A stretch of DNA of 38,808 nt from Calditrichia bacterium (GTDB lineage: Bacteria > Calditrichota > Calditrichia > Calditrichales > J004): assembly GCA_027006055.1 (NCBI GenBank), contig JALTKX010000241.1:1-38808 (forward strand), given 5' to 3'. The notes below the pieces were generated by a model. It was not told the DNA's origin and made no database searches. It was given only the letters and a program-made list of their open reading frames with translations. The position numbers were made by a program, and so were the translations under genes. Positions 25,775 to 31,047 of this stretch are shown in pieces; positions within the stretch are counted from its first letter, which is position 1; the number at the start of each line of letters is the position of its first letter.

Positions 25775-25865
25775 TCCAGGGTTTATTTGTATCCCCGTCT
25801 GTTTATTTAATGCAAAAGATTGCCTAAATTAAAGTCGTAAATTTTTGACGTGAAAGGAAATTGAA

Positions 25866-28165: not shown

Positions 28166-28918
28166 ATGTCGGGACATTCCAAGTGGCATTCTATAAAACA
28201 TAAAAAAGCAAAAGTAGACGCGGCACGCGGAAAAATTTTTACAAAACTGATCAAGGAAATTACCGTGGCGGCCCGCATGGGCGGCGGCGACCCGGATATG
28301 AATCCCCGCCTGCGGGTGGCGGTGGCGGCGGCCAAGGCAGCCAACATGCCTTCCAAAAACGTGGATAATGCCATAAAAAAAGGTACGGGAGAAATGCCCG
28401 GCGTGGTTTATGAGGACGTCTCGTATGAAGGATACGGTCCCGGAGGCGTGGCCATGTTTATCGAAGCGGTTACCGACAATAAAAACCGCACCGTGGCGGA
28501 AATACGGCATCTTTTTTCCAAGCATGGCGGTAATTTGGGGGAAAGCGGCAGCGTGGCCTGGATGTTTGAACGCAAGGGCATGATAACCGTACCCGCGGAA
28601 AATTACAGTGAAGACGAGCTGTTTGAGATAATCATTGAAGCCGGCGCGGAGGAAATGGAAAGGGAAGGCGACAGTTATGTCATCTATACCGCCTTTGAGG
28701 ATTTTAACGAAGTACGCAACCATTTGGAGGAAAAGGGCGTAACCATTGAGTCCGCCGAGCTGACGCGCATTCCGCAAAATACGGTTTCCCTGGCCGGTAA
28801 GGAGGCCGAACAGTTAATGAAGATGATGAACATTCTGGATGAGCATGATGACGTGCAGAACGTATTCGCCAATTTTGATATTGAAGACGCGGAAATGGAA
28901 AGGATTTTAGGCGAATAA
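28166..28918 (+). CDS. yebC: YebC/PmpR-family protein (TACO1-like)
   Basis: A 250-residue protein of the YebC family, described as transcription regulators and, more recently, as factors that relieve ribosome stalling. The hallmark N-terminus 'MSGHSKWHSIKHKKAKVDAA' is intact, as are 'PRLRVAVAAAKAANMPSKNV', 'YEGYGPGGVAMF', and 'FSKHGGNLGESGSVAWMF'. GGAG precedes the ATG by about 9 bases. It heads a ten-gene run that continues with ruvC, a common bacterial arrangement. Its TAA stop overlaps the proposed ruvC start. Confidence 0.96.
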   Translation: MSGHSKWHSIKHKKAKVDAARGKIFTKLIKEITVAARMGGGDPDMNPRLRVAVAAAKAANMPSKNVDNAIKKGTGEMPGVVYEDVSYEGYGPGGVAMFIEAVTDNKNRTVAEIRHLFSKHGGNLGESGSVAWMFERKGMITVPAENYSEDELFEIIIEAGAEEMEREGDSYVIYTAFEDFNEVRNHLEEKGVTIESAELTRIPQNTVSLAGKEAEQLMKMMNILDEHDDVQNVFANFDIEDAEMERILGE

Positions 28919-29412
28919 AAAAGTCCAAGCGAATACTGGGCATAGATCCCGGATTAAATGTGACGGGTTACGGGATCATAGACGTGGCGGGCAGCAGGCT
29001 GCTGCCGGTTACCTACGGGCATGTAAGAACCTCTTCCGCGACGGGTCTGCCCGAAAGACTGTTAAAAATACATGAGGCGATAACGTCATTGCTGGCCGAA
29101 TTCAGACCGGATGATGTGGCCGTTGAAAATATTTTTTATGCCGACAATGTAAAAACGGCCATTGTAATGGGTCATGCCCGGGGAGCGATCCTGGTGGCGG
29201 CGAAAACCGCGGGCGCCGATGTGTACGAATATAGTCCGCGCGAGGTAAAAATGTCCGTGGTGGGCAACGGAGCGGCATCGAAAAGCCAGGTTAAGTTTAT
29301 GGTGGCCCGTCTGTTGAGCATAAAGGAGACCATCACGCCCGATGACGCCAGCGATGCCCTGGCCGTGGCCTTGTGCCGCTGGCATCGCCAAAAATTGAAT
29401 CTCAGGGGTTAA
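28915..29412 (+). CDS. ruvC: Crossover junction endonuclease RuvC, probable ATA start
   Basis: RuvC resolves Holliday junctions made by RuvAB. Catalytic acidic residues are present: Asp11 in 'RILGIDPGLNVTGYG', Glu71 in 'VAVENIFYADN', and Asp144/Asp147 in 'DDASDALAVAL' (numbers from the ATA start, 165 residues, family-typical). The first ATG/GTG/TTG in frame is GTG at 28960, which would delete Asp11 and the first beta strand. Between the last in-frame stop (28882-28884) and Asp11 only ATA (28915, 28933) and CTG (28936) could start. ATA at 28915 overlaps the yebC stop like the ATGA junctions elsewhere, has GGAAAGGA about 10 bases upstream, and gives 'MKKSKRILGID'. A base-call error (ATG read as ATA) is the main alternative. 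Confidence 0.9.
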   Translation: MKKSKRILGIDPGLNVTGYGIIDVAGSRLLPVTYGHVRTSSATGLPERLLKIHEAITSLLAEFRPDDVAVENIFYADNVKTAIVMGHARGAILVAAKTAGADVYEYSPREVKMSVVGNGAASKSQVKFMVARLLSIKETITPDDASDALAVALCRWHRQKLNLRG

Positions 29413-29424
29413 GTAAAAACATCG

Positions 29425-30021
29425 ATGTTTGAATATATACAGGGAATCCTGGAAACAAAAACGCCAACGCATACCGTGCTTGATGTACAGGGTCTAGGTT
29501 ACAGATTATCCACATCGCTTTCTACTTTCGAGAAACTGCCCTCCGTTGGAGAAAAGACAAAACTGTATGTATATACCCATGTGCGCGAAGACCAGTTTAA
29601 CCTGTTCGGCTTTAGCGATACGCGTGAAAGGGACGTATTTTTGGCCCTGCTCTCCATTTCGGGAATCGGTCCCAGGCTGGCGCAAACCATTTTATCCGGG
29701 ATGACCCCGGCGGAGCTTATCGCGGCCATCGGGCAAAAAGATGAAAAACGGCTTAACGCCATCAGCGGGGTGGGGAAGAAGACGGCCCAGCGGTTGATTG
29801 TTGAGCTAAACGGAAAATTTGAGGATGATATGCTCATTCCCGGACAGCCGGAAGAAGAGAAAAGCCCTCCCCTTAACAGTATGGAAAAAGAGGCCTTAAT
29901 GGCCCTGCTGGCCCTGGGGTATAAAAAGCCCGTTGCCGAAAGGGCGCTGGCGCGCATAAAAAAACAGGGGCGCTATACAAGTTTGGAAGCCTTGTTAAAA
30001 GACGCCCTGCAGGTGGTGTAG
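29425..30021 (+). CDS. ruvA: Holliday junction branch migration protein RuvA
   Basis: RuvA binds four-way junctions and loads RuvB. 198 residues, normal length. The N-terminal OB-fold begins 'MFEYIQGILETKTPTHTVLDVQGLGYRL'; two helix-hairpin-helix motifs are 'SISGIGPRLAQTILSGM' and 'AISGVGKKTAQRLIVEL'; the C-terminal RuvB-contacting domain is 'EALMALLALGYKKPVAERAL'. It lies 12 bases after ruvC; its stop is directly followed by the ruvB ATG. Confidence 0.97.
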   Translation: MFEYIQGILETKTPTHTVLDVQGLGYRLSTSLSTFEKLPSVGEKTKLYVYTHVREDQFNLFGFSDTRERDVFLALLSISGIGPRLAQTILSGMTPAELIAAIGQKDEKRLNAISGVGKKTAQRLIVELNGKFEDDMLIPGQPEEEKSPPLNSMEKEALMALLALGYKKPVAERALARIKKQGRYTSLEALLKDALQVV

Positions 30022-31047
30022 ATGAGCGATATCATCAGGCCCGGCTTTAACGAAGACGACGCGGACATAGAGCTTAGCCTGCGTCCGCAAAGCCTAAAGG
30101 ATTTTATCGGTCAGGAAAAGGTGAAGGAAAACCTGTCCGTTTTTATCGAGGCCGCGCTGCAAAGGGAAGAAGCCCTGGATCATGTTCTGCTATACGGACC
30201 GCCGGGCTTGGGCAAAACCACGCTGGCCATGATCCTGAGCCGGGAACTGAACGTGGACATAAAAACCACTTCCGGGCCCGTTTTGGAACGCGCGGGAGAC
30301 CTGGCGGGCCTGCTGACGAACCTGAACGACAAAGACGTCATGTTCATCGATGAGATTCACCGCGTGAACAATGTGGTGGAAGAATTCCTCTATTCGGCCA
30401 TGGAAGACTTTCACATAGACATCATGCTGGATAAGGGCCCCAACGCCCGCTCCGTTCAACTGGCGCTGGCCCCTTTTACCCTTGTGGGGGCAACGACCCG
30501 CGCCGGTTTGTTAACGGCGCCCATGCGGGCACGCTTTGGCGTTGTGTTGCGCATGAACTATTATGAGGCCGGGGAGTTGGCGCTTATCATCAAGCGATCG
30601 GCTCATATTTTAAATATTCCGATCGATGAGGCCGCCGCCCTGGAGATAGCGGGTCGCTCGCGCGGCACGCCGCGCGTGGCCAACCGTCTTTTGCGACGCA
30701 TCAGGGATTTTGCCCAGGTGCTGGCCGATAACCGGATCACGCTGGACGTGGCCCGCGACGCCCTGGAGCGGCTGGATGTGGACAGCAGGGGGCTGGATGA
30801 AATGGATAAACGCATCTTAAAGGTTATTATTGAAAAATATAACGGCGGGCCCGTGGGGCTGAATACCATTGCCGTGGCCGTTGGAGAGGAGAGCGATACC
30901 ATAGAAGAGGTCTATGAGCCCTTTCTGATTCAACAGGGATTTATAAAAAGGACGGCCCGGGGCCGTATGGTTACCCAAAGCGCTTATGAGCACTTTGGGC
31001 TAAGCAGGGGAAACAATCCGGACTCTTTGCAAGAGAGTCTGTTCTAA
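30022..31047 (+). CDS. ruvB: Holliday junction ATP-dependent helicase RuvB
   Basis: RuvB is the AAA+ motor of the RuvAB branch migration complex. 341 residues. It has '[21 protein letters not shown]', Walker A '[12 protein letters not shown]', Walker B 'MFIDEIHR', sensor '[20 protein letters not shown]', the arginine finger region '[20 protein letters not shown]', and the C-terminal winged helix '[23 protein letters not shown]' with 'FIKRTARGR'. The ATG abuts the ruvA stop (TAG|ATG). Confidence 0.98.

Follow-up and report, generated by a model that had tools for sequence, protein, structure and literature searches.

Known systems of non-canonical initiation and gene coupling

Lineage-conserved non-canonical start codons, AUA included, are already known in bacteria. 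AUA starts have been documented for infC and ccpN of Staphylococcus aureus, the latter being conserved with Bacillus subtilis, and in S. aureus reporters AUA yields approximately 10% of the level obtained with AUG; in rich medium, ccpN reaches up to 30% (PMC13009471). Further non-canonical starts are found under the control of IF3, namely the AUU codons of infC and pcnB in Escherichia coli (cited in PMC13009471) and the GTC codon of sigR in Streptomyces (PMC5472188). A different line of work concerns adjacent genes. Pairs whose stop and start codons overlap are widely coupled through termination-reinitiation (PMC6728339), a process that is aided by a Shine-Dalgarno (SD) sequence and declines with the distance between stop and start (PMC2268962).

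The ruvC gene of a genus of uncultured Calditrichota, described in the following sections, is a further instance of a lineage-conserved non-canonical start. With infC and ccpN of S. aureus it would share an AUA start that occurs naturally in a chromosomal gene and is conserved within a lineage, which in their case was reported to lower translation; the S. aureus genes, however, possess strong extended SD sequences and are supported by ribosome profiling (PMC13009471), whereas ruvC has a modest SD-like motif within yebC, overlaps a stop codon, and is known from sequence only. As in E. coli infC and pcnB and in Streptomyces sigR, where a weak start keeps the product low, discrimination by IF3 would be expected for ruvC, although both the codon and the gene are different ones. 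Coupled ATGA and TAATG pairs show the same four-nucleotide stop/start geometry (AUAA in place of AUGA) and an SD-like motif in the upstream gene (PMC6728339), but ruvC would start with AUA rather than AUG or GUG. Neither an AUA start for ruvC nor an AUA sharing bases with an upstream stop codon was found in the literature searched, which comprised few subscription journals.

The yebC-ruvC junction

The window, i.e. the whole stretch of 38,808 nucleotides under analysis, corresponds to contig C241 of a metagenome-assembled genome (MAG; G000) 3.0 Mb in size. Among named organisms, its closest relatives belong to the Calditrichota: Calditrichales bacterium S144_8, Calditrichaeota bacterium J004, and Caldithrix abyssi HyVt-577. 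The plus strand carries yebC, ruvC, ruvA, and ruvB in this order, each confirmed by curated profiles. The yebC/PmpR-family gene (28166..28918; NF001030, 357 bits; TIGR01033, 334 bits) begins with ATG and ends with TAA at 28916-28918, and is 96% identical in the congener G001 and 88% identical in the congener G002. ATG starts are likewise present in ruvA (29425..30021; TIGR00084, 207 bits) and ruvB (30022..31047; NF000868, 517 bits). Read from the ATA codon considered below as its probable start, ruvC occupies 28915..29412 and consists of 165 codons plus TAA. Its product exceeds the curated cut-offs of PF02075 (172 bits; cut-off 22), TIGR00228 (152; 100.65), and NF000711 (180; 163), and is by these profiles a member of the RuvC Holliday-junction resolvase family (PF02075/TIGR00228), i.e. 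a predicted resolvase. It aligns with the solved E. coli RuvC (1hjr) from ILGIDPG onward, which places the first catalytic Asp, located in the GIDPG motif, at the GAT codon 28945..28947.

The open ruvC frame extends from 28885 to 29409, preceded by an in-frame TGA at 28882-28884, and between this stop and the Asp codon it contains no ATG, GTG, or TTG. This absence had been claimed in the first-pass annotation, and all of its coordinates in the window proved correct on re-reading. The near-start codons it listed (ATA 28915, ATA 28933, and CTG 28936) are present as well, but an in-frame ATA at 28942, adjoining the Asp codon, had been overlooked. Direct reading also bears out that the ATA at 28915..28917 shares the bases TA with the yebC stop and that it is preceded by GGAAAGGA (28897..28904), an SD-like sequence within the C-terminal coding region of yebC with AAGGA at 28900-28904. 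The first in-frame GTG of ruvC (28960..28962) had been predicted to be the choice of automatic callers, and the ORF lister indeed begins the gene there. The catalytic Asp of the GIDPG motif is retained only when translation begins upstream of this GTG. Gene finding restricted to ATG, GTG, and TTG clips this residue off RuvC in the window's genus, a warning for the annotation of these genomes.

Among 52 distinct ruvC loci drawn from the order, the class, and beyond, 49 possess a canonical start before the catalytic Asp. The three without one are exactly all members of the window's genus in which the locus is assembled: the window itself, G001 (WGCN01000097; RuvC 87% identical to that of the window), and G002 (RFFS01000066; 73% identical), the latter two likewise carrying no ATG, GTG, or TTG upstream of the Asp. 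The locus is known from these three species of the genus only; a fourth congener (G003) was left out of the comparison owing to a contig gap, its matching contigs ending at about window position 25846 and resuming at 29766. All three species show ATA at the identical ruvC position, overlapping the yebC stop (TAA, TAA, and TAG, respectively), and in G002 the ATA is kept even though the end of yebC differs (last codon GAA to GCA, stop TAA to TAG). Since about 30% of the sampled genes of G000 end with ATAA or ATAG, the overlap by itself means little, and the weight of the case lies in the absent canonical start together with the shared position of the ATA.

Proposed initiation at AUA 28915

Of the near-cognate codons, only ATA 28915 is both identical in the three species and located at the usual distance, 10 codons before the Asp. 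In relatives, whose canonical starts were counted only from at least five codons upstream of the Asp, the nearest such start lies 6-11 codons before this residue in 44 of the 49 loci and never closer than six. The AAGGA motif is found 10 nt upstream of the ATA in all three species, and GGAAAGGA is unchanged in G001 and G002. SD sequences are in use in the genus, their modal spacer being 6 nt, so that the spacer at this locus is longer. AAGGA also encodes conserved YebC residues; its selection as an SD sequence is unproven, and it is treated here as SD-like, a putative element. Conservation of the ATA is only modest evidence of selection, because two of its three letters are set by any TAA or TAG stop. 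From these comparisons, we strongly infer that AUA 28915 is the ruvC start used in the window's genus, which would make ruvC a conserved DNA-repair gene whose AUA start is clearly supported by phylogeny. The best overall explanation, and a probable one, is that ruvC would be translated from this codon by reinitiation after yebC, at low RuvC output.

The stop and start codons share bases in the ATAA at 28915-28918 and point in the same operon direction, a geometry that is identical in G001 and G002. It is supposed that a ribosome or 30S subunit finishing yebC is held by the AAGGA inside the end of this gene and restarts with fMet-tRNA at the overlapping AUA (AUAA; AUAG in G002). The combination of a weak codon with coupling to yebC would make RuvC scarce; here, the expected low output is derived from what was measured for AUA in S. 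aureus. Initiation of ruvC may also, as other non-AUG starts suggest, be sensitive to IF3. The junction offers a natural setting in which to ask whether near-cognate codons are tolerated better in termination-reinitiation than in ordinary initiation. Folding of the junction RNA of the three species revealed no common structure by eye.

A stricter version of this model holds that the AUA start works only via reinitiation after yebC and is kept weak by selection, thereby setting the RuvC dosage. A single step from TAA to TGA at the yebC stop would create ATGA and leave YebC unaltered, and this change has been fixed in none of the three species; TGA constitutes 22-26% of the stops, and the yebC stop itself varies between TAA and TAG. 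Such selection for a low dosage is possible, but it is put forward tentatively.

It is improbable that ruvC starts at a different near-cognate codon, for which the Ile codon at 28933, giving fMet-LGIDPG, would be the main candidate and ATA 28942 or CTG 28936 less likely ones. These candidates are in frame, the codon at 28933 remains ATH in the three species, and infC in the same order uses ATC or ATT starts. A protein beginning at 28933 would, however, start four codons before the Asp, nearer than any of the starts counted in relatives, and no conserved SD sequence precedes this codon. The Ile codons at 28933 and 28942 vary among the species (ATA/ATT/ATC and ATA/ATT/ATT, respectively), and CTG 28936 is replaced by CTC in G001.

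Far less probable still is a YebC-RuvC fusion produced by yebC ribosomes that shift into the -1 frame ahead of the stop. ruvC does lie in the -1 frame relative to yebC, and both frames stay open together until the stop, with an SD-like motif located upstream. Inspection, however, reveals no slippery heptamer in the yebC frame, neither in the window (AGG ATT TTA GGC GAA TAA) nor at the end of yebC in G002 (AGG ATT CTG AAC GCA TAG). As for the A AAA AAG run, it follows the stop and is missing from G001.

The translated N-terminus of RuvC

The residues predicted downstream of the ATA are KKSKR/ILGIDPGLNVTGYGIIDVAGSR. The three species show zero nonsynonymous changes in codons 6-15 after the ATA (RILGIDPGLN), against a level of synonymous change at or near saturation; as judged from this pattern of substitution, these codons are therefore translated. 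Purifying selection also acts on the remainder of ruvC (dN 0.086 and dS 1.2 between G000 and G001), which indicates that the gene is not decaying. Conservation is lacking in codons 2-5 after the ATA, a common feature of RuvC tails, and the protein sequence by itself does not fix the exact start. Across the three species, the lack of a canonical start at a translated N-terminus is conserved without exception.

This pattern bears on the notion that only a truncated RuvC is produced, from GTG 28960 or a later GTG, by a gene that is dying or has adopted a new role without its first catalytic Asp. GTG 28960 is the first canonical start in frame. In all three species, however, the region before it has been kept by strict purifying selection while its synonymous change is saturated, and at the position of the GTG the congeners read ATT (G001) and ATC (G002). 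Given these replacements and the selection on the upstream codons, GTG 28960 is not a conserved arrangement, and exclusive production of the truncated form is extremely unlikely.

A sequence or assembly error, with G as the true base at 28917 (giving ATGA) or some other start hidden by a mistake, is hardly conceivable either: the MAG of the window is fragmented (298 contigs, 86% complete), but G001 and G002 are different species from separate public assemblies that carry the same ATA and lack a canonical start, and it is not credible that matching errors arose three times among proteins 73-87% identical. The first-pass annotation had left the choice between such an error and genuine use of ATA by the cell; the three species favor the latter and contradict the former.

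Origin of the junction

The yebC stop is found 29 nt before the Asp codon in all five genomes of the family (f1), which allows the junction to be aligned without gaps. The sister genus (g2; G004 and G005) reads CGA ATA ATG at this place, i.e. the same ATA followed by ATG, and ATAATG also occurs in two genomes of a neighboring family (G008 and G013). The codon homologous to 28918..28920 is ATG in G004 and G005, AAA in the window and G001, and GCC in G002. Because the sister genus and the two neighboring-family genomes carry ATAATG at an ungapped junction, the ancestral ruvC start was most likely an ATG one codon downstream of the ATA, in a TAATG overlap, at the site of the present AAA codon, and was lost in the window's genus. 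The AUG would have changed to AAA or GCC, with initiation shifted to, or forced onto, the adjacent AUA. The loss of the ATG between sister genera is a datable event.

Two earlier proposals have to be modified in this light. Relatives with ATG at the junction had been named as a sign of error; the congeners have ATA, and the ATG of the sister genus lies one codon downstream (ATAATG) and not at the ATA. It had also been pointed out that a single change from A to G at 28917 would restore a standard ATGA junction, which is arithmetically right but does not describe the history of the locus, the ancestral junction most likely having been TAATG.

A related arrangement is seen in G011, which belongs to another genus and family. 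Its ruvC junction reads ATA AAA ATT GTG, with AAA following the ATA and a GTG two codons further on. A similar but independent loss of the ATG, with rescue by the canonical GTG, may have occurred in this lineage.

Occurrence of genes without canonical starts in the genus

A partial survey compared 506 kb of G000 with 596 kb of G001, about one sixth of each genome. It included 85 ORFs that did not overlap one another and matched G001 at 65% identity or more; 23 of them were flagged, and 16 of these 23 were inspected in detail. A canonical start was absent only from ruvC, infC, and a prfB-like ORF in its post-frameshift frame, while the other inspected ORFs are accounted for by gene overlaps, antisense shadows, or matches that continue through stop codons. 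infC appeared in one pass of the survey and was hidden in another, an antisense ORF being the probable reason. On this basis, a general use of ATA starts across the genus is rejected, and the survey of about one sixth of the genome points to ruvC as an individual case.

The infC gene (G000:C94 3317-3826) has no ATG, GTG, or TTG at its conserved N-terminus and an apparent ATC start behind AAGGAG in all four congeners. Across the order, infC shows ATC or ATT behind an SD sequence in nearly all genomes, the usual arrangement for IF3 autoregulation. The ORF at L075 14490-15551 resembles prfB (release factor 2) by eye and displays a conserved reading without a nearby start codon, as expected from a programmed +1 frameshift. 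Within the window, the ORF at 320-1438, with the N-terminus LIVLGIETSCDE, is apparently tsaD with a TTG start, as named from its sequence; the conservation upstream of this start seems to be due to overlap with the preceding gene.
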